A stretch of 64,000 nt of DNA from an uncultured Acidimicrobiaceae bacterium (GTDB lineage: Bacteria; Actinomycetota; Acidimicrobiia; Acidimicrobiales; SZUA-35), in assembly GCA_947259095.1 (NCBI GenBank), contig CAMYLA010000026.1, forward strand, positions 1 to 64,000. Reading direction: 5' to 3'. Under the pieces are notes generated by a model. That model saw nothing but the letters and a program-made list of their open reading frames with translations, searched no databases and was not told the origin of the DNA. Position numbers and translations under genes: made by a program. Below, piece by piece: positions 35,128 to 46,636 of this stretch (position 1 is its first letter; each line of letters opens with the position of its first letter).

Positions 35128-35928
35128 TCAGAGGTGGTCGAGCACCGTCCGCCAACCGCCGTCGTCGGGATCGGGAATCACCAGATCCACAACGTCGAGC
35201 ACCTCGGCCTGGCCACCGGCGACGCCGATACTGAGATCGGCGTTGGCCAACATCTCCAGATCGTTGACCGCATCACCGATGGCCACGATCCGATCCGGCT
35301 GGAGATCGGCGTAGCTCAGGTAGGCCTTGATGCCGTCCCATTTTGTGATCGCCGGCGGCTGGATGTGGACCGACCAGGCCCGGTACAACCGGTCCTCGTA
35401 CAGCAGCACGTCGGCCGCAGCCCCATCAAGGGCCGCCACCGCCGGCTCCAAGCGTTCTCGCTCCATGCCCAGCATGCTGAAGCTGAGGATCGACGCCCTG
35501 CGGGCGGTGGTCGAGGCCGGCCCGGCCCGGTGGTCGTCGCCGAATCCGGCCACATGGTCGGGGTGGGTCGTCACCCCGGACTCGCAGTGAACCAGGCCAT
35601 CGTCGGTGTAGATCACCGGCGAGAGCCCGACCCCGGCCAGCGACTCCACCACTCGTCGAGCGGCCTCCGATGTGAACGGATGGGCGTGAAATCTGGTGTC
35701 GGTCGGCAGGTCGACGCCCAAGGCCCCGTTCAACAACACCGCCGGCAACGACAGGCCGTTGTCCTCCAGCCCCCGCTTGGTCGACGCCTCACGCCTGCCG
35801 GTTGCCACCAGCAACGGAATTCCGGCCAAGCGCAGTTCTCCGACCGCGGCCAGCGTCGACGGATGGCAGCGCAACGCCGAGCCCCAGAACGAGCCGTCCA
35901 GGTCGGTGATCACCAGGGTTCGGGACAT
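35128..35928 (-). CDS. HAD-superfamily (Cof/IIB) phosphatase
   Basis: A 266-residue HAD hydrolase. Motif I is VITDLDGSFWG (Asp9, Asp11), motif II is in LLVATGRR, the lysine motif in ITKWDGIKAYL, and motif IV in VAIGDAVNDLEMLANAD. The Cof-type cap lies between. Members dephosphorylate sugar phosphates or nucleotides such as flavin precursors. It follows the baeRF gene by 76 bases on the same strand and may be the last gene of the DabBA-PII-baeRF operon. Start ATG 35928 gives the family N-terminus; the longer frame is antisense noise. Substrate not predictable. Confidence 0.85.
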   Translation of the reverse strand: MSRTLVITDLDGSFWGSALRCHPSTLAAVGELRLAGIPLLVATGRREASTKRGLEDNGLSLPAVLLNGALGVDLPTDTRFHAHPFTSEAARRVVESLAGVGLSPVIYTDDGLVHCESGVTTHPDHVAGFGDDHRAGPASTTARRASILSFSMLGMERERLEPAVAALDGAAADVLLYEDRLYRAWSVHIQPPAITKWDGIKAYLSYADLQPDRIVAIGDAVNDLEMLANADLSIGVAGGQAEVLDVVDLVIPDPDDGGWRTVLDHL

Positions 35929-36004
35929 CGGCTCAGCGTAGGGCGCCGGTGACCGAGGCCACCGGCGCCACCTGGATCGCAACTCGGGGAAGCGGCGGCT
36001 CAGC

Positions 36005-37021
36005 TCAGTAGCGGAGCACCGCGGCGATGCGCCCGTGGCTGTCGAGGGCGCCGTTGTCGACGATGGCGGCCTCGCCGTCGTAACGGAGCACCGCCTCGAG
36101 AATCTCGTCGACCACGTCGTCGGTGACCTCCCGATGATCCTCATCCGTCGGCTGGAGGTGACCCTGTTCATCGATGCGGGCCGACATGGAGAACCCGTTC
36201 TCCACCACCACGAGGTCGATACGACCCTCACCGGCCAGCGACCAGATCTCGTCGACACCGGAAGCGTACTGCTTCGACGAGCGGGCCCGGTCGAGGCGCT
36301 CCAGGGCCCGGTCCTGGCGGCTGGCAAGCCAATCGACCACCAGCGGCCAGGCCATCGTGTGGAGGTCGGACGGGTTTGTCCGATCGTGGTTTCCGGCGAC
36401 GACGCCGATGATGTTCAGTGCAGTGTCGTCCACCAGCCGGGTCGTGGTTCGCTTGACCCCGGCCACCACGATCGGCAGCGAGTACTCGGCATCCAACTCG
36501 CTGAGGGCCTCGGCGACGATCTTGGACCAGACGGTGATGCTGGTGCCCTCTTCCCGGCGCAGGGGCCACTCGTCCGACCGCTCCTCCACGATCCGGACCC
36601 GGTCGCCCAGGAACTCCCTGACCATCGATTCGCTGACCGCCACCACCCGGTAGGCGGCGGTACGGTGCAGATCGGCCACCAGATCACGGGTGGCGAACGT
36701 CTCGTCGATCACCACCCGCTCCTCGACGCCGCCGCCGAGCGAGATGACCGATCGGTGCTCGGGCGACACGCAGAGGGCGAGCGCATGGCCGTTGCGCTGA
36801 CCACCGCGCTCGGCCAACAGCGACTTCAGCCGCTCCACCAGTTCCAGCCGTTGGGCCTCCTCGACCCGGTCCGAGAGACGTCCGTCGGCGGTGGCGATGA
36901 GCTTGGCCGCGCCGGCCTGTTCCTCGACCGAGAGCGGGGTTCCGGGATTGGTGTTGAGCAACACGGTGACACTGGGATAGCTCCGCATCCGTTGGAGCTG
37001 ATCGAGGAGCAGTCTGTTCAT
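36005..37021 (-). CDS. baeRF-family protein (bacterial archaeo-eukaryotic release-factor homologue)
   Basis: A 338-residue protein of the family typified by MNRLLLDQLQRMRSYPSVTVLLNTNPG, then LVERLKSLLAER, ALALCVSPEHRSVISLGGGVEERVVIDETFATRDLV, and an eRF1 domain-3-like C-terminal part (RIDLVVVENGFSM, DEILEAVLRYDGEAAIVDNG). Bacterial members are thought to act on ribosomes or peptidyl-tRNA, perhaps in rescue or hibernation, but few have been tested. A GGQ tripeptide occurs in ERGGQRNG near residue 73, although whether it is equivalent to the eRF1 GGQ is unclear. It lies 64 bases after the PII-like gene, in the DAB operon. Confidence 0.8.
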   Translation of the reverse strand: MNRLLLDQLQRMRSYPSVTVLLNTNPGTPLSVEEQAGAAKLIATADGRLSDRVEEAQRLELVERLKSLLAERGGQRNGHALALCVSPEHRSVISLGGGVEERVVIDETFATRDLVADLHRTAAYRVVAVSESMVREFLGDRVRIVEERSDEWPLRREEGTSITVWSKIVAEALSELDAEYSLPIVVAGVKRTTTRLVDDTALNIIGVVAGNHDRTNPSDLHTMAWPLVVDWLASRQDRALERLDRARSSKQYASGVDEIWSLAGEGRIDLVVVENGFSMSARIDEQGHLQPTDEDHREVTDDVVDEILEAVLRYDGEAAIVDNGALDSHGRIAAVLRY

Positions 37022-37085
37022 GAGGTGCCTTTCATGGTTGGCGGAGTCCTCTTGGAGGAGGTGGGATTCGAGGTCATATCCGAGG

Positions 37086-37433
37086 TCAGGTGGCTTCGCC
37101 GTCGACCGGACGGAAGTATTCGGGACGGCTGACGTTTGTCTCGCTGACGAACACCACGCCGTGATGGCTCTCCAGCAGCCGGCGGATTCCGGCCACCACC
37201 GGTTCGGCCCGCTCCAGCGGTACCACGCTGATCAGCAGCGAGAGGCTGTTGCGATCGTTGAACAGCAGCCGACCCTCGTGCTGGCCGTGGTGGCCGAACC
37301 CGGACACCCCGTGCAGTGCGGTGTAGCCGGTGGCGCCCGACGCCAGCAGCAGATCCCGGATGGTCGGCACCTGCTCGCCGTCGATGACAACCTCGATGCG
37401 GGCCATGGGAGTGAAGCCGGTCCAAGTGGTCAT
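37086..37433 (-). CDS. PII-like regulatory protein of the DAB locus
   Basis: A 115-residue ferredoxin-like protein of the PII superfamily: ARIEVVIDGEQVPTIRDLLLASGATGYTALHGVSGFGHHG, with the position of the PII T-loop occupied by GFGHHGQHEGRLLFNDRN, then LLISVVPLERAEPVVAGIRRLLES. The Tyr-uridylylation site of GlnB is not evident; the GxGHxG block is shared with carboxysome/bicarbonate-associated PII-like proteins (CPII, SbtB-like). ATG 37433 overlaps the DabBA stop by four bases (ATGA), with GGAGAAGAC as ribosome site. It likely binds adenine nucleotides and tunes bicarbonate uptake at the membrane; this role is inferred from family and position. Confidence 0.82.
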   Translation of the reverse strand: MTTWTGFTPMARIEVVIDGEQVPTIRDLLLASGATGYTALHGVSGFGHHGQHEGRLLFNDRNSLSLLISVVPLERAEPVVAGIRRLLESHHGVVFVSETNVSRPEYFRPVDGEAT

Positions 37434-40400
37434 GTCTTCTCCGTCGTGATGTTTGTCAGGGTGCCGATTGGGTCGAGTGGTCGGTGGTTGGTGATCCAGG
37501 TGCCCTGGGGCGTCCGGATGGACCACGGTTCGTGGGGATGGGATCGTCCGGCGATGCGTAGCCAGGAGCCGCCGGTCAGCGTCTGCAGGATCGGATTTTC
37601 GGCGATGATGTTCTCGATGCGGGTCAGGTCGGCCTGTATCACCGCCATCAGCCGGACCGGCTGGTGGTACCGGTGGCCGTCGACGTGGGTGCTCTGCATC
37701 GGCAGGCCGACCCGCAGGTCTCCCCCCTCGCCCGAGATCACGCCGGTGGTCCCGATCGGATTGTGGATCAGCTTGTTGCCGGCGCCGAACACCTCCGGGT
37801 CGACGGTCGAGAAGTAGTACTGGGCGGAGATCCAATGGCCGACCACCAGCGGTGCGGTCATGATCGTCTCCAGCACCCGACCGGAAGGGTCGTTGTCGGC
37901 ATCATAGCTGTGGAGGAAGGCCCGGCCGGCGAGGTCGAGCCCGGCGGTCATCGACCGGGGCCCGATGATGAAGGCGGCGTTGCGGGCCAGGCCCCATTCC
38001 GGCCGCACCTGCGCCCAGTCCGAGCCCCGGTCCCGGACGGCCGAAGCCGGTCCGGGGAGGTGGGTGGCCCGGTCAACGGCCTGACGAGCTCCGGCGTCTG
38101 CCAGCAATGTCGCCAGCCGGGCGATCGGTTCCCGATGATCGGGCGGTGCATCGGCGACATCGAGCAGGGCGACATGATCGCTGGCGGTGTCATGCAGCCC
38201 GGCCACGAACCAGGTGTCATCCGGGATCGTGATGCCCCGCTCGAGCAGGCCGTGGCGAACGTCGGGTGAGTTGAGCAGCGCGGCCACCGCCCGGGCGTTG
38301 TCGTCACCGGAGGCGCCGGCACAGGCCCCGCACTCCAGGGCGGTTGCGTGGGCGTTGTTGGCGGTGATGCTGGTGTGGCCGCACAGCAACACGATCGGGG
38401 CGAACCGATCGATCAACCCCATCGTGTTCAGCACCGCCTCGGCGAAGAACACCCGCTGCTCCACCAGCATGTCGTCGTCGTCGATGAGCATCCGGGTGAG
38501 CGGCGGCCGCAGCGGCCGGCTGCGCTTCGGCAGGAAGGTGCGGGCCGCAGCGGTGGGTCCGAGGAGCCAACCGAGGGACTCGGCCAACACGAACGGGGCC
38601 CCCGGGCCGTGCTTGGCCTCGGCATGGGCCCGATGGAGGCCGGCCAGGGCCCGCTGCCTCGACAGTCCACTCGCCACCGCGTCGATCTGGTCGCTGCGAA
38701 CCTGTTCGGCGGCATCGATGGCCGGAGCGACCAGTACCGGGCAGCGGGCCTCGGTGTGGCCCCAACCGAGGCGCCGGATGCGCATCGGCACCCCGAAAAA
38801 GCCGGCGAATCCCAACGTCTCGATGTTGCCGGCCGCCTCCAGATGGCGCCGCAGACCTTCGGAGCGGACGTCGATGCAGAACACCAGCTGGGCGTCCGGC
38901 CGGGCGAGCCCCTGGCCGGGGTCGAGCCGATCCAGCGTGGACAGCAGCCGCTCGTCCATGTTGCGTTCCTGCGCCTCGAGCCACAACGACGGCCGAATGT
39001 CGGCCGGCACCTCGGCCAGGATCTCGGCCACCGCATCGTGGGCCCCGTCCGGGTCCCGGGGCGAAACCACGGCGGCGGCGGCACGGACCCGCTCGTCGAG
39101 GCGTTCGGCCGCGTCTGGCTCGGCCACTGCCGGCGTGGCGTCTGGCCGCGATCCGATCGCCGCCGCTTCCAGCATGGCCCGGACCGCCACCACGTCGATC
39201 GGAGCCAGCGCCGGCCGATGCTCGTCGGGCTGGGCCCACTCGTTTCGCCACTTCGCCAGCCCCGACCAACCGATCAGCCGGGCCAGGTGGCCACGGATCT
39301 CGTCCACCCGTTCGCCGGCGGTGACACCGCTCAGCGAGAACGCGGCTTCGATCACCGCCGCCGGGTCGTCTTCGAGGGAGGCGATCCAGCGGGCTCCGGG
39401 CCGACCGACCAGGGTGACGACCCGGGGATCGGCGGCGGCAACCCGGCGGCACATCGGGACCAACCGCTCCCCGGGTTCGTGGCGGGCCCAGGTCGGCGGC
39501 GACACGTAGGCGGCCAGCCACTCCGAGACGAGGCGATCGATCTCGTCGCCCAGATCCTCGGCGGCGGGGCCCCGCCGTTCGAGGGCGGTCCGGGGCACGG
39601 GGACGGGGTCGACGTCGGGCCCGTGGAGCAGGTCGGCCACGACGACGTCGACCGGATCAACGGCTCGACCATCGAGCTCGATCGACCCTCTTGCGCCGAG
39701 CTCGGCCAATCGGTGATGGACGGCAAAAGCCAGATCGTCGGGGCTGGTGAGACCACGTTCATGGTCCCTGCGATAGTCGTCCAACGAGAGATGGGTCCGG
39801 CTCCGAAGCCAGCGACGGGCGGCGGCCGCGGCCTGATCGAACCCGGCCGATTCCAATCCACCGAGTGGGTTGACGGCCACGAACGAGGCCAGCGGCCACT
39901 GGGGGGCCACGATGTCACCGGCCCGGGCCACGTCGGCCCGGATCCGGGCCCGATCGGAGGCACCCTCGGCTGCGGCAGGTGCCCCGGCCCAGGTTGTGGC
40001 CGACGCCGAACCCGACGGGGCCCGGCCGCTGCGCAACGATGAGGACACGGCTGCCGGGGCGGTCAGCACCGAGATGAAGCCCTGGGCCCGGGCCCGCAGC
40101 GCGGGACCGCCGGTGCCCGGTGCCAACGCCACGACGCCGACCACAACCGCAGCGGCCACAATCGTGACCAGCAGCACCGCAGGACCGATGGCGGTGCCCT
40201 CGGACCCGGCCGGGAAGCTCGGCGCCACGAAGTACTCCACCAGCCGGAGGCCGGCCACGTAGCCGAAGACCGAGACCACGGCCGCCGTCGAGCCGACCAC
40301 GATCGTCGCCGGTGGGCTCAGCGGGCCCCGGGCCAGCCAACCGTGGAGCCCGAACGCAACGCTCAGCCAGGCGAACACCACCACCAGAATCCGCCCCCCG

Positions 40401-41566
40401 TCCGACACATCGGGAGGTATGGCCCACACCGCAGCGCCGACCGCCACCGTCGGGACGAGCAGCACCACCAGCCACCTCACCGGCGACGATGCCAGTTGCA
40501 GGGCACCCGGCCGGCGCCGGTTCGCCAGCCCGGCGGTGACCGAATCCCCGGCGCCGAGGAACAGGGCCGCCTTGTACATGCCGTGACCGGCGATGTGGAA
40601 CACCGCACTGCTGAAGGCCCCGACGGCGCACTGCACGACCATGAACGCCATCTGGGCCACCGTGGACCATGCCAGCCCACCCTTCACATCGGAGCGGAGC
40701 AGCGATGCGGCCGAAGCCACCACGATCGTGACCACCCCGAGGGTGAAGGCCATGGTCACCGCCGGCGCCGAGGCGGCGAACGGGGCGGCGAACCGGATGA
40801 GCAGCAGCCCGGCGCCGCTGACGAAGCCGGCGTGGACCAGAGCCGAGACCGGGGTGGGGGCCACCAGCGTGCCGACCAGCCATCGGTGGAACGGGACCAG
40901 TGCCGAGCGGGAGGCGCCGGCCACCACCACCAGCATGGCGAACAGGTGGAGGGAGGCGACCCCGGCCACCGAGGAGGCTCGGAGCTCATCGACGGCCGCC
41001 GTCATGTCGCCGGTGAACAGCCCGTCGCTGTGGACGGCGGCCAGGACCAGCGCCGCCACCAGCGCCACATCGCCGACCAGCAGCGTGCGCACGATCCGCC
41101 GCCTGGCGGCCAGGGCCGGCCGCCACCGGTCCTCGAACCCGATCAACGCCACCAGGGCCCCACCGGACAGGAACCAGCCGAACGCCAGGAGCCACCCCGA
41201 CCCGGCCACGACCACCAACGCCGAGCCGGTGGCAACGAAACCGATCAGCCCGAAGAACCGGCCGGGCCGACCGTCATCGTCGAGACTGCGCCGCGAGAAG
41301 CCGGCCACGACGGTTGCGGTGGCCATCGCCACCAACAGCAGCAACGCGCCGGCCCGATCGCCCCGGAGGCCGAGCCAGGCGACCTCGCCCACTCGACCGG
41401 CGTCGTCCCGGGCGCTCGCCGCCAGCACCGCGGCCGCGGCCAGGGCCGACAGCCCGCAGCCGGCGACGACCAGCCGACCGGCCTGCTCCAGGGATCGCAC
41501 CACCATCGCCGCCACCCCCACGACCAGCGGAACGAAGATCGCAATGATCAGCAACCAGGACCCCAT
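37430..41566 (-). CDS. fused DabB-DabA inorganic-carbon transporter
   Basis: A 1378-residue single chain. Residues about 1-515 are a NuoL/MrpA-like proton channel (DabB): HAGFVSGAGLLLIRFAAPF, DVKGGLAWSTVAQMAFMVVQ, FHIAGHGMYKAALFLGAGDS. After a linker, residues about 540-1378 are DUF2309/DabA, a beta-carbonic-anhydrase-like subunit. Its zinc site is intact: Cys897 and Asp899 (FCIDVRSEG), His1064 (CGHTSITANN) and Cys1079 (ECGACAG), the same C-x-D...H-14-C layout as described DabA. DAB complexes couple ion movement to CO2 hydration, accumulating bicarbonate. Start ATG 41566 is chosen because the -10 box (TATATT at 41638-41643) lies downstream of the alternative ATG 41653. DabA and DabB are usually separate genes. 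Confidence 0.88.
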   Translation of the reverse strand: MGSWLLIIAIFVPLVVGVAAMVVRSLEQAGRLVVAGCGLSALAAAAVLAASARDDAGRVGEVAWLGLRGDRAGALLLLVAMATATVVAGFSRRSLDDDGRPGRFFGLIGFVATGSALVVVAGSGWLLAFGWFLSGGALVALIGFEDRWRPALAARRRIVRTLLVGDVALVAALVLAAVHSDGLFTGDMTAAVDELRASSVAGVASLHLFAMLVVVAGASRSALVPFHRWLVGTLVAPTPVSALVHAGFVSGAGLLLIRFAAPFAASAPAVTMAFTLGVVTIVVASAASLLRSDVKGGLAWSTVAQMAFMVVQCAVGAFSSAVFHIAGHGMYKAALFLGAGDSVTAGLANRRRPGALQLASSPVRWLVVLLVPTVAVGAAVWAIPPDVSDGGRILVVVFAWLSVAFGLHGWLARGPLSPPATIVVGSTAAVVSVFGYVAGLRLVEYFVAPSFPAGSEGTAIGPAVLLVTIVAAAVVVGVVALAPGTGGPALRARAQGFISVLTAPAAVSSSLRSGRAPSGSASATTWAGAPAAAEGASDRARIRADVARAGDIVAPQWPLASFVAVNPLGGLESAGFDQAAAAARRWLRSRTHLSLDDYRRDHERGLTSPDDLAFAVHHRLAELGARGSIELDGRAVDPVDVVVADLLHGPDVDPVPVPRTALERRGPAAEDLGDEIDRLVSEWLAAYVSPPTWARHEPGERLVPMCRRVAAADPRVVTLVGRPGARWIASLEDDPAAVIEAAFSLSGVTAGERVDEIRGHLARLIGWSGLAKWRNEWAQPDEHRPALAPIDVVAVRAMLEAAAIGSRPDATPAVAEPDAAERLDERVRAAAAVVSPRDPDGAHDAVAEILAEVPADIRPSLWLEAQERNMDERLLSTLDRLDPGQGLARPDAQLVFCIDVRSEGLRRHLEAAGNIETLGFAGFFGVPMRIRRLGWGHTEARCPVLVAPAIDAAEQVRSDQIDAVASGLSRQRALAGLHRAHAEAKHGPGAPFVLAESLGWLLGPTAAARTFLPKRSRPLRPPLTRMLIDDDDMLVEQRVFFAEAVLNTMGLIDRFAPIVLLCGHTSITANNAHATALECGACAGASGDDNARAVAALLNSPDVRHGLLERGITIPDDTWFVAGLHDTASDHVALLDVADAPPDHREPIARLATLLADAGARQAVDRATHLPGPASAVRDRGSDWAQVRPEWGLARNAAFIIGPRSMTAGLDLAGRAFLHSYDADNDPSGRVLETIMTAPLVVGHWISAQYYFSTVDPEVFGAGNKLIHNPIGTTGVISGEGGDLRVGLPMQSTHVDGHRYHQPVRLMAVIQADLTRIENIIAENPILQTLTGGSWLRIAGRSHPHEPWSIRTPQGTWITNHRPLDPIGTLTNITTEKT

Positions 41567-41731
41567 CAGCTTGGCAGGAGGCCGCCGACGCCGGAACGGA
41601 GCGCAGTCGGAGAGAGGTAGTTCGAAACCACAAGTTAAATATATGCAATTCATTTCCTATATAGCAAGTTTTGTTATCTGATTCAGGATTACGATCACCC
41701 CCTTCGAGCCGATGCGGAGTAGATTCCGGGT
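41567..41731. promoter_or_regulatory. AT-rich divergent promoter/operator, DabBA and winged-helix regulator
   Basis: This is the most AT-rich stretch of the window (41630-41700). On the minus strand TTGCTA (41662-41667) and TATATT (41638-41643) are 18 bases apart and face the DabBA gene. The inverted TATAT/ATATA arms at 41640-41644 and 41659-41663 overlap this promoter and could be the binding site of the divergent winged-helix regulator. Confidence 0.55.
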
Positions 41732-42043
41732 ATGACCGGCGAATCGCATCGACGCTGGACCTTCCTCACCAACCATGCCCACGTGCTGCTGGCGGTCGCC
41801 CGGACCCCCGACCTCCGACTCAGGGACATCGCCGAACTGGTGGAGGTCACCGAGCGAACGGCGATGCAGATCATCGTCGACCTCGAAGAGGACGGGTACC
41901 TCACCCGGGAACGGCAGGGCCGGCGGAACCACTACCGCATCAATCATGGCAATCCGCTCCGCCATCCCCTGGAGGAGCACCACCACATCGACGACCTGCT
42001 CCGGGCGTTGGCCCACGAGGAACCGAACCCCCGACCGGCATGA
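41732..42043 (+). CDS. winged helix-turn-helix regulator (MarR/ArsR-like)
   Basis: A 103-residue DNA-binding protein: WTFLTNHAHVLLAVARTPDLRLRDIAELVEVTERTAMQIIVDLEEDGYLTRERQGRRNHYRINHG is a complete winged helix with the recognition helix ERTAMQIIVDLEEDGY and wing RERQGRRNHYRI. No metal- or ligand-binding motif is obvious beyond a His cluster (EEHHHIDD) near the end. It is divergent from the DabBA operon across a short AT-rich region, so it is the likely regulator of carbon uptake. Family is clear; the signal is unknown. Confidence 0.85.
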   Translation: MTGESHRRWTFLTNHAHVLLAVARTPDLRLRDIAELVEVTERTAMQIIVDLEEDGYLTRERQGRRNHYRINHGNPLRHPLEEHHHIDDLLRALAHEEPNPRPA

Positions 42044-42090
42044 GGGGCCCGGCTCATCACCGGTGACCGAGGCGGGCGCCGGGTGGTGAC

Positions 42091-43317
42091 TCAGTCGGCT
42101 CGGGGAACCACACCCTTGTCGGCCAGCTCGGCGATCTCCTCGGGGCTGTACCCGAGCAGCCGGCCCAGGATCCGCTCCGAGTGCTGGCCCCGTTCCGGCG
42201 CAGGCCCTCGGGGCCCGACCTCATCGTTGTTCGGCATGCGGAACGGCGCACCGACCGTCTCGAATCGGCCGAGCTCGGGGTGGTCGACCGACTGGAACAC
42301 CCCGGCCGCCCGAACCTGCGGGTCCTGGGCCGCCGAGGCCGCATCGTTGATCGGGGCCCAGATGCAGCCGTACTCGTCCAGCCGGGGGGCCCAGTAATCG
42401 AACGGCCGCTCGCCGACCGTCTCGTCGATCAGCGCCACCAGCGGCGGCATGTTCCGGTAGCGGAGCGAGCCGTTTGCGTAGTTCTCGTGCTCGATCAGGT
42501 CCTCCCGCTGCAGTGCCCGACAGAACCGGTTCCAGGCGTCGGACCGGTCCGGCATCGTGAACTGGATCCAACGACCGTCCGAGCACTGGAAGGCCTCGAG
42601 CATGACCGAGATCGACTTGTCCCGGGGTCGGTCGGGAGTGGGTCGACCGTCGACCACCGCAGTGCAAAGGTCGACGCCGATGGTGAACGCCGCAGTGCGA
42701 ACCAATGACGTCTCGATGACCTGCCCCTCGCCGGTCAGATCCCGGCCCCTGAGTCCGGCCATCAAGCCCCCGAACAGGGCGATCGAGGTGGTGTGGTCGC
42801 CCTGACCGGGCCGGGGATGGGGTGGCACCCCGCCCGGCGGGGTCATGCCTCCAATCAGGCCCGAGCGGGCGAAGAAGGCCGTCATGTCGTAGCCGGGACG
42901 GTTGATCTCGTCGCCCTGCTCGCCGTAGCCGGACAGCAGCCCGATCACCAGATCGGGCTTGATGGCGTGCAGCTGGTCGACGTCGAGCTGGAACCGCCGC
43001 CGCCGATCCGGCAACAGGTTGAGCACGACCACGTCGGCCACCGCAACCAGCCGGTGGGCCACCGCCACCCCGGCCGGGTCGTCGAGGTTCAACTCGATCG
43101 ACTGCTTGCCCCGGTTGATGAACTGGAACGGGTAGTCGGGGTTGACCTCGCCCTCGGGGACCTTGGCCTGCTTCATCAGCCCCCGGATCGGGTCGCCGCC
43201 GACGGCCTCGACCTTGATCACCTCGGCCCCGAGGTCGGCCATGATCGCCGCCGCGGTGGGGGCGGCGGCGAAGCTGGCGATCTCCACCACCCGGACGCCG
43301 TCGAGGGGCGATGTCAT
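42091..43317 (-). CDS. CaiB/BaiF (class III) CoA-transferase
   Basis: A 408-residue class III CoA-transferase with the N-terminal block PLDGVRVVEIASFAAAPTAAAIMADLGAEVIKVE, the FINRGKQSIELNLDDPAG segment, and the catalytic Asp expected in NRPGYDMTAFFARSGL. It moves CoA between carboxylic acids; substrates range from formate/oxalate and carnitine to bile acids. ATG 43317 has GGAGGTCGCC just upstream. On the minus strand it follows a decayed SDR and a PNPOx-fold gene. A second member of the family lies at 51084. The specific acids are not predictable. Confidence 0.88.
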   Translation of the reverse strand: MTSPLDGVRVVEIASFAAAPTAAAIMADLGAEVIKVEAVGGDPIRGLMKQAKVPEGEVNPDYPFQFINRGKQSIELNLDDPAGVAVAHRLVAVADVVVLNLLPDRRRRFQLDVDQLHAIKPDLVIGLLSGYGEQGDEINRPGYDMTAFFARSGLIGGMTPPGGVPPHPRPGQGDHTTSIALFGGLMAGLRGRDLTGEGQVIETSLVRTAAFTIGVDLCTAVVDGRPTPDRPRDKSISVMLEAFQCSDGRWIQFTMPDRSDAWNRFCRALQREDLIEHENYANGSLRYRNMPPLVALIDETVGERPFDYWAPRLDEYGCIWAPINDAASAAQDPQVRAAGVFQSVDHPELGRFETVGAPFRMPNNDEVGPRGPAPERGQHSERILGRLLGYSPEEIAELADKGVVPRAD

Positions 43318-44054: not shown

Positions 44055-44169
44055 CACACAGACGACCGTCGCCCGACCACACAGACGACAGTCGCCCGAC
44101 CACACAGACGACCGTCGCCCGACCACACAGACGACCGTCGCCCGACCACACAGACGACCGTCGGCCGCT
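44055..44169. repeat. five tandem 23-bp repeats
   Basis: Five head-to-tail copies of the 23-base unit CACACAGACGACCGTCGCCCGAC (shown here as CACACAGACGA plus CCGTCGCCCGAC) lie between the PNPOx-fold gene start and the esterase stop. Units 3 and 4 are identical to unit 1, unit 2 has one change, and unit 5 diverges after base 17. There are no spacers, so it is not a CRISPR array. Each unit holds the near-palindrome CGACGGTCGTC on the reverse strand. Confidence 0.85.
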
Positions 44170-45587: not shown

Positions 45588-46532
45588 GTGGACTCGAACC
45601 GGCAGACCGAGAACCGAGGAGCGCCCGCCGCGGCCAGACCACCGAGCTGGTTCACCGGTGCCATCGCCAACCGGCCGGAGTTCCATGCCGTCGAAGTCGA
45701 CGGCTGCCGGATCAATTACCTGTGCTGGGGCGACCCTGACCTCCCGGCGCTGATCCTGCTCCACGGTGGCGCCGCCCACGCCCACTGGTGGTCCTTCATC
45801 GCCCCCCAGTTCACCCAGCAATACTTCGTGGTGGCACCCGACCTGTCCGGCCACGGCGACAGCGGCCGGCGGCCGGACGGTTACACCATGGAGCAGTGGG
45901 CGGACGAGGTGATGGCGGTGGCCCGACACGCCCGGGCCCAGGATCGGCCGATCGTGATCGGCCATTCGATGGGCGGGCACGTGGCCATCGTGGTGGCGGC
46001 CCGATACGGCGACGATCTTGGCGGGGCCATGATCCTCGACACGCCGATCCAGCGGCCCGATCCCGAGTCCGAGGAGGGGGAGAAGGGCCGAATGTTCCGC
46101 AACCCCAAGACCTACCCCGACCTGGAGACGGCGCTGGAGCACTTTCACCTCCAACCACCCCAGCCCACCACCAACGACTACATCGTGAACCACATCGCCC
46201 GCCACTCCCTCAAGGAGGTCGACGGCGGCTGGACCTGGAAGTTCGATGCCGGGGTGTTCGCCAGGGAGCCGACCATCACCAACGCCTACCTCGACAAGAC
46301 CCGATGCCGGTTGGCGCTGATGCACGGCCAGCTCAGCGACCTGGTCACCCCCGAGGTCCAGTCCTACATGGAGGAGCTGACCGGCCGGAGCGCCCCGATG
46401 GTGGAGATCCCGCAGGCATACCATCACATCCCACTCGATCAGCCACTGGCCCTGATCGCCGCCATCCGGGCCATCCTGGCCGACTGGCAGCATTCGGTGG
46501 ACAAGAAACGTTTGCGGGACCTGACCAGCTAA
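45588..46532 (+). CDS. alpha/beta hydrolase
   Basis: A 314-residue hydrolase: LILLHGGAAHAHWWSFIAPQF (oxyanion hole), APDLSGHGDSGRR, nucleophile elbow IGHSMGGHVA near residue 124, a cap region, and a C-terminal histidine in PQAYHHIPLDQP. It resembles haloalkane/epoxide-hydrolase-like and meta-cleavage-product hydrolases. GTG 45588 gives the expected short N-terminus. The last 15 codons are duplicated downstream (46561-46606). It is divergent from the membrane esterase. The substrate is unknown. Confidence 0.85.
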   Translation: MDSNRQTENRGAPAAARPPSWFTGAIANRPEFHAVEVDGCRINYLCWGDPDLPALILLHGGAAHAHWWSFIAPQFTQQYFVVAPDLSGHGDSGRRPDGYTMEQWADEVMAVARHARAQDRPIVIGHSMGGHVAIVVAARYGDDLGGAMILDTPIQRPDPESEEGEKGRMFRNPKTYPDLETALEHFHLQPPQPTTNDYIVNHIARHSLKEVDGGWTWKFDAGVFAREPTITNAYLDKTRCRLALMHGQLSDLVTPEVQSYMEELTGRSAPMVEIPQAYHHIPLDQPLALIAAIRAILADWQHSVDKKRLRDLTS

Positions 46533-46606
46533 CTCGCCCCGCGACGTCGGCCCGCCGACATGGCAGCACTCGGTGGACAAGAAACGTTTGCGGGACCTGA
46601 CCAGCT
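46485..46606. repeat. 46-bp direct duplication of the hydrolase 3' end
   Basis: Bases 46485-46530, the last codons of the hydrolase, recur at 46561-46606 with a single mismatch (T/C), offset by 76 bases. The copy lies beyond the stop in non-coding DNA, before the convergent response regulator. It is a recent local duplication. Confidence 0.9.
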
Positions 46607-46636
46607 GAACCGCCCGGGGACGCGCCCCGGGCCCCG

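Follow-up and report, generated by a model that had tools for sequence, protein, structure and literature searches.

A natural DabB-DabA fusion in an uncultured Acidimicrobiaceae bacterium, a probable single-chain inorganic-carbon pump with a PII-like neighbor

We analyzed a 64,000-nucleotide stretch of DNA, which we call the window, from an uncultured Acidimicrobiaceae bacterium (contig CAMYLA010000026.1, positions 1 to 64,000), in which one gene on the minus strand (37430..41566) carries both halves of a DAB-type inorganic-carbon pump, DabB and DabA. The original prediction, made from the letters of the window, had described a DabB-type and a DabA-type half in one stop-free frame of 1378 residues, and this is true, with the addition that the gene lies on the minus strand, which had been left unstated. 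The frame begins with an ATG at 41566, ends with a stop at 37432-37430, and has no internal stops. There is an alternative in-frame ATG at 41653, 29 codons upstream, which is the mechanical start, but based on the relatives and on the hydrophobic N-terminus (MGSWLLIIAIF) we favor 41566 as the true start.

The DabB half, a NuoL-like proton channel, takes up residues 1-492 (40091..41566, minus strand), as delimited by PF00361, the residue map of DabB2, and hydrophobic stretches that continue to residue 492. It is followed by an Ala/Ser/Pro/Thr-rich, variable linker of residues 493-538 (39953..40090, minus strand) and by the DabA half (PF10070, beta-carbonic-anhydrase-like) of residues 539-1378 (37430..39952, minus strand). 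In Pfam, Proton_antipo_M (PF00361) matches residues 127-363 (E 4.7e-27, 95.4 bits against a cut-off of 21.5), and DabA (PF10070) matches residues 546-1336 over its whole profile (positions 1-747 of 747; E 1.8e-215, 718.2 bits against a cut-off of 25). The top matches among solved structures are the two subunits of DAB2, 9rd0_A (E 9.1e-113) and 9rd0_B (E 3.2e-33), while the best NCBIfam equivalog for NuoL, the L subunit of complex I, reaches 174.3 bits, below its cut-off of 380. A PHROGs search with the fused protein gave no match. The genome that contains the window (229 contigs totaling 6.39 Mb, with 96% completeness and 7.1% contamination) holds one PF10070 match, and all four of its other matches to the fused protein fall on the channel half.

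The known pump that we used for comparison is DAB2, for which the structure 9rd0 comes from Halothiobacillus neapolitanus (PMC13144422). In an alignment of 38 DabB+DabA rows with the DAB2 chains we mapped 22 DAB2 positions, and 19 of them are identical in the window protein, 11/11 in DabA and 8/11 in DabB. The DabA2 residues kept are Cys351, Asp353, Arg355, Ser356, Ala376, Glu444, His524, Cys539, His585, Asp590 and Leu658, which correspond to Cys897, Asp899, Arg901, Ser902, Ala921, Glu996, His1064, Cys1079, His1125, Asp1130 and Leu1193 of the fused protein. Those kept in DabB2 are Asp185, Ser256, His260, Lys310, Ser316, His339, His343 and Lys347, here Asp166, Ser241, His245, Lys295, Ser301, His324, His328 and Lys332, and all but Asp166 are channel residues that were mutated in DAB2. 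Loss of such channel residues had been named beforehand as an outcome that could overturn the fusion reading, and it is not seen. When the corresponding metal, dyad, finger, and channel residues of DAB2 were mutated, growth was significantly reduced or lost altogether (PMC13144422).

The zinc-site span lies at 38330..38878 (minus strand) and contains the Cys-His-Cys ligands Cys897, His1064 and Cys1079 and the Asp899-Arg901 dyad, aligned with Cys351, His524, Cys539, and Asp353-Arg355 of DabA2. Cys897, Asp899, His1064 and Cys1079 had all been proposed as zinc ligands with the spacing of characterized DabA. All four do align with DabA2, but Asp899 corresponds to Asp353, which in the structure is half of an Asp-Arg dyad and not a zinc ligand (PMC13144422), and the spacing from Cys to His is 167 residues in the window protein against 173 in DabA2, while that from His to Cys is 15 in both. 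A helix-loop-helix finger, placed by the alignment and by model helices at residues 958-1011 (38534..38695, minus strand), carries Glu996, the counterpart of DabA2 Glu444. This position is Glu in 36 of the 36 rows with letters there, two further rows being cut. A candidate loss of the finger Glu in relatives was rejected as a misplaced pairwise alignment, which the 38-row alignment corrects.

We modeled residues 179-1378 with AlphaFold2 (the limit was 1200 residues), using 65 other rows, most of them with one half only. The model has a mean predicted local distance difference test score (pLDDT) of 81.3 and a predicted template modeling score of 0.77, with finger helices at 958-984 and 990-1011 (model 780-806 and 812-833). 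Linker residues 503-528 (model 325-350) have pLDDT below 50. The structure prediction that had been suggested as a check returns the finger helices for the part of the protein modeled, and it adds little beyond the sequence. The fusion had also been expected to reveal how the halves meet, which it does not, because the linker is unconserved and modeled with low confidence, and the interface has already been seen in the DAB2 structure, where the DabA helix-loop-helix finger packs against TM11-14 of DabB (PMC13144422). Fusion does enforce a 1:1 stoichiometry, as had been pointed out, but this is the same ratio as in the known heterodimer.

When looking for fusions in other genomes, we counted only frames with both domains. 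We rejected a long frame alone as a sign of fusion: many PF10070 frames of more than 1100 residues come from loci where dabB and dabA are separate genes whose GC-rich frames overlap, or from DabA genes with insertions. PF10070 occurs in 4/39 genomes of the window's family: the window's own (G000) and two others (G027 and G022, the latter cut within DabA) have both halves in one frame, and one (G020) is cut at a contig end. In a sample of the order, PF10070 is present in 49/298 genomes, and among the 42 of these 49 whose frames we read, four are fused (G000, G069, G203, G157). In the seven with frames not read (G160, G172, G182, G253, G256, G270, G294), no DabA frame exceeds 795 residues; a whole fusion would need more, although cut genes could hide one. 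A phylum sample gave PF10070 in 23/396 genomes and no further fusion in the loci examined, some of them cut. A scan of named genomes, covering the best 80 of 552 relatives and not meant as a census, found four fused loci (L104, L106, L134, L135). L104 and L106 share their frames with G157 and G022 and were not counted as extra genomes, L134 is an Acidimicrobiia metagenome-assembled genome (MAG) cut within DabA, and L135 is Sphingomonas psychrolutea. The window-type fusion is thus in six genomes (the window's, G027, G203, G157, G022 and L134), and the complete fusions are 53% (G027), 61% (G203), and 56% (G157) identical to the window protein. A search for DUF2309 proteins with an antiporter domain had been recommended; they occur in these six genomes (cut in two of them), in G069, and in S. 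psychrolutea, within a sample rather than a census.

Among the long DabA frames with insertions, those of L041-L046, L048, L050 and L052-L054 (phylum families f67, f77 and f104) are about 1300-1390 residues long, with some 450 residues inserted into the N-terminal helical domain. In L044, the 747 positions of the PF10070 profile stretch across residues 54-1265, and no second Pfam family matches. Where loci of these families cover both genes, dabA comes before dabB. In L020 and L022 (G188 and G128), one of the two DabA genes in each genome is about 1000 residues long, with an insertion of about 200 residues.

The original prediction was wrong in holding that described DABs consist of separate subunits only. 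The first mention of PF00361-PF10070 fusions that we met dates from 2015, a 2019 paper described "a single fused gene" for Acidimicrobium ferrooxidans (PMC6689103), and a 2026 paper (PMC13144422) attributes the natural single-subunit DAC of A. ferrooxidans to Schmid 2021. The same paper reports an artificial DabB2-DabA2 fusion, modeled on A. ferrooxidans and solved by cryo-EM, in which growth yield was not significantly affected. In its accessible part, PMC5700660 discusses ybcC-nuoL operons without fusion, and that of PMC10880623 does not mention "fused" or "fusion". We recognized no published treatment of the window-type clade in a search that left most subscription literature outside. A natural DabB-DabA fusion is therefore already known as a kind of system, and that kind stays unchanged; the additions are modest, namely an origin of its own and a setting that is linked to PII and lacks a RuBisCO match. 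The window gene is a natural, conserved counterpart of the engineered fusion from which the DAB2 structure was solved, and a more stable one-piece pump may be available for carbon-uptake engineering and for tests of proton coupling.

The fused DAC of A. ferrooxidans (L082) likewise has DabB followed by DabA in one frame and shares the zinc site, dyad, finger Glu, and proton-path residues with the window protein, but it belongs to a different DAB clade. It keeps Lys235 and Arg182, which the window protein lacks, and has Glu for DabA2 Asp590, which the window protein keeps. DAB2 of H. neapolitanus shares the domains, zinc site, Asp-Arg dyad, finger Glu, and proton path with the window protein, and its engineered fusion has the same B-to-A order, but DAB2 is naturally two genes. 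The halves of the window protein are joined by a natural linker, and it has other residues in place of Lys235, Arg182 and Ile151. MpsAB of Staphylococcus aureus has the same Pfam pair in a host that does not live by carbon fixation (PMC6689103), but it is encoded by two genes, where the window has one, and has been argued to be sodium-coupled (PMC13144422).

Directly downstream of the fused gene is a gene for a PII-like protein of 115 residues (37086..37433, minus strand; PF00543, E 1.4e-19), with an ATG that overlaps the stop of the fused gene (ATGA). Its nearest PDB entries are 5d4n (E 1.8e-20) and 5d4l (E 2.1e-20), with other PII chains at E 0.045 or above (76 bits to 5d4n/5d4l against 17 to the next PII chain). 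The database labels both entries merely as P-II; we take them to be the bicarbonate-responsive CPII of Thiomonas. A PII homolog lies 3' of DabA in all five other window-type loci with the 3' end covered (G027, G203, G157, L080 of G022, L081 of G020) and also in a number of unfused loci. No PII gene was found in the locus stretches examined of six RuBisCO-bearing genomes (G140, G103, G066, G115, G067, G545), nor in the 16 kb examined around the A. ferrooxidans fusion, which in this respect is unlike the window. Alpha-carboxysome loci have a PII gene beside DUF2309 (PMC4633670), much as in the window, but the window's genome has no RuBisCO match; this comparison covers RuBisCO and not carboxysome genes.

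We searched 24 chosen genomes, leaving out that of L134, for RuBisCO (PF00016). None of the six window-type genomes searched has a match (five fused, G000, G027, G022, G203 and G157, and the cut G020). Full or nearly full matches are present in A. ferrooxidans (G069), where the match is about 10.6 kb from the fusion, and in the unfused G140, G103, G066, G115, G067 and G545. In all of these unfused genomes except G067 the match is on the dab contig, about 6.6-7.8 kb away. Five of the seven unfused operons that are sister to the window-type fusions are therefore near RuBisCO, and the other two (G047, G427) have partial matches only. The window-type clade links a DAB pump to a PII-like partner in genomes without a RuBisCO match.

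We believe, with a probability of about 0.85, that the fused protein is a single-chain DAB/DAC inorganic-carbon pump, acting as a proton-driven one-way CO2 hydratase that supplies bicarbonate to a heterotroph. Proton coupling and CO2 hydration are carried over from DAB2. The membrane potential would drive protons inward through the N-terminal NuoL-like half, and the finger of the C-terminal half would complete the channel and pass the movement to the buried zinc site, which would hydrate CO2 in one direction and yield bicarbonate in the cytoplasm. At low CO2, the heterotroph would spend the bicarbonate on anaplerotic and biosynthetic carboxylations, non-Calvin carboxylations being its most likely destination, and the PII-like protein may control the pump. 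DAC homologs are known in non-autotrophs (PMC6689103).

Several observations weigh against this reading. Three of the 22 mapped positions differ, all in the DabB half (Lys235 is Arg220, Arg182 is Leu163, and Ile151 is Phe132), and changing Lys235 or Arg182 to Ala lowered the growth yield of DAB2 (PMC13144422). The Arg182 position varies widely among the aligned rows, Asp185 of the Lys235/Asp185 ion pair is kept, and Phe132 is not the Glu that NuoL, unlike DAB2, has at DabB position 151 (PMC13144422). Completeness is 83-98% among the genomes searched for RuBisCO, and it is the agreement of the misses that speaks for its absence. The window's genome has three matches to beta-carbonic anhydrase (PF00484; best E 9.9e-29), and G203 and G157 also have full matches, so the pump is probably not the sole CO2 hydratase, and such an enzyme in the cytoplasm would reverse the build-up of bicarbonate. 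The idea that the pump replaces a missing carbonic anhydrase is not supported, given these matches; S. aureus, by comparison, has no carbonic anhydrase homolog (PMC6689103). As for the model, Foldseek against the PDB matched the channel half alone and weakly (NuoL 7z7r_L, E 9.3e-6, TM score 0.29 by target). The channel-half matches are complex I L-type subunits, and 9rd0, which may be newer than the library, was not among the 50 matches listed. With residues 1-178 absent and alignment rows that mostly hold a single half, the model is no test of the interface.

Could the fusion be an artifact of assembly or sequencing that joined two genes? The genome is a draft with 7.1% contamination, and dabB and dabA often share a frame with a single stop between them (29 of the 76 named loci with separate frames, among the best 80 of 552 relatives, a ranking that may favor such loci). 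However, five other assemblies (two cut within DabA) have this fusion with the junction at the same position, the complete ones 53-61% identical, which counters the missed stop or frameshift at the linker that had been raised as a possible refutation. GC content at third codon positions is continuous across the linker (0.84, against 0.81-0.94 in the rest of the gene). A neighboring gene (42091-43317) is 83% identical to a gene of the same genus, which fits the genus, yet it is also 82% identical to a gene in another genus of the family. Judged from these sequences the fusion is not an assembly error, and an artifact is next to impossible. It is very unlikely that one frame gives two proteins by an internal start in the linker that makes a separate DabA. 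There are nine ATG, GTG or TTG codons between residues 465 and 559, and the different fusion of S. psychrolutea has an ATG with AGGAG at the DabA start, so that an internal start is possible there. None of the nine window candidates has a Shine-Dalgarno-like sequence (a leaderless or Shine-Dalgarno-free start may still be used), nor do 26 of the 27 candidates in the five other window-type fusions, the one being GTG519 of G157 with GGAG. The linker (residues 491-538) is 26-27% identical among relatives, compared with 33-77% for the parts between residues 61 and 1340, and despite this low identity it stays in frame in them. With both domains in one conserved frame and no likely internal start, the gene most probably encodes a natural single-chain DAC.

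Two further alternatives concern what such a single-chain pump would do. A role in an autotrophic CO2-concentrating mechanism, such as one would expect of the A. ferrooxidans pump, is quite unlikely: the RuBisCO matches near five unfused sister operons and near the A. ferrooxidans fusion speak for it, but all six window-type genomes searched lack one, a result for PF00016 alone and not for other fixation pathways. Beta-carbonic anhydrase divides the genomes in a similar way, with matches in window-type genomes (in G027, G022 and G020 a short N-terminal match only) and none found in G069, G140, G103, G066, G115, G067 and G047, although G545, which has RuBisCO, weakens the contrast with a short match, as is also seen in G427. 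Sodium coupling in place of proton coupling, as argued for S. aureus MpsAB, is unlikely. The channel half does belong to the Mrp/NuoL family, and it has been proposed that the sodium gradient powers MpsAB (PMC13144422), but the DabB2 proton-path residues tested and the finger Glu are kept in the window protein (a comparison with DAB2, not with MpsAB), and DAB2 is fully active without sodium (PMC13144422).

In a quick IQ-TREE run on the 38 DabB+DabA rows, which is not a careful tree, the six window-type fusions form one clade (100 in the Shimodaira-Hasegawa-like approximate likelihood ratio test, SH-aLRT). Their sister is the group of seven unfused operons (G103, G115, G545, G140, G066, G047 and G427, the last a Nitriliruptoraceae MAG, L105), while the fusions of G069 (taken as A. 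ferrooxidans) and L135 fall among proteobacterial types, across the tree from the window-type clade. The approximately unbiased (AU) test rejected a single origin of all eight fused rows (p 8.3e-5, row set fixed before the tree) and one clade for the window fusions with A. ferrooxidans (p 3.9e-5, set chosen after the tree was seen). From these sequences, two origins of fusion are sure and one, in S. psychrolutea, is possible. In that genome (L135:5662-9786), dabB and dabA are in one 1375-residue frame, with the AGGAG just upstream of an ATG where DabA would start; perhaps the stop was lost and the second start kept, and two proteins may still be made. Where one stop is all that separates the dabB and dabA frames, a single change is enough to fuse them, and the fact that fusions arose more than once shows this to be a small step.

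Within the window's genus, DabA is found in 2/12 genomes, and in the tree the window is closer to G203, from another family, than to G027 from its own genus. Together with a neighboring baeRF-like gene that has no match at 1e-20 elsewhere in the family sample, this suggests that the window-type locus has spread horizontally. More broadly, single-chain DABs would have arisen at least two and perhaps three times, with the fusion of the window clade accompanying departure from the Calvin cycle, as a one-piece, PII-controlled bicarbonate supplier of heterotrophs; we give this broader account even odds.

Upstream of the fused gene is a divergent gene for a winged-helix (MarR/ArsR-like) regulator (41732..42043, plus strand; MarR_2, E 2.5e-7), which probably regulates the dab operon. 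A homolog has the same divergent place in all five window-type fused loci with the 5' side covered (G027, G022, G203, G157, L134), and also in four unfused operons (L091, L094, L096, L097); in L089 it is on the other side. A weak sigma-70-like promoter match lies at 41638..41667 (minus strand), the only one in 35900-42100, where chance alone would give 0.3. Beyond the winged-helix gene, the gene at 42091-43317, CaiB-like by reading alone, is 83% identical to its counterpart in G026 of the same genus, 82% to that in G001 of another genus, and 76% to that in G034, where the gene that follows it is syntenic. Just after the PII gene is a baeRF family 3 gene (36005-37021, minus strand; Pfam 71.5 bits against a cut-off of 31.5), for which the family's other 38 genomes gave no match at 1e-20; a ribosome-hibernation-factor model stays below its cut-off (204.6 against 330).

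Tandem dab operons occur at L140:5704-16571 and L125:688-9783 (one proteobacterial, one a Bacteroidetes MAG), in both cases with a PII gene after the second operon, and in L140 the second of the DabA frames is 1071 residues long. Elsewhere in the window, a 23-base unit is present in 4.9 copies at 44055-44167 (96% matches), and a 76-base unit is repeated twice at 46479-46629 (89%).

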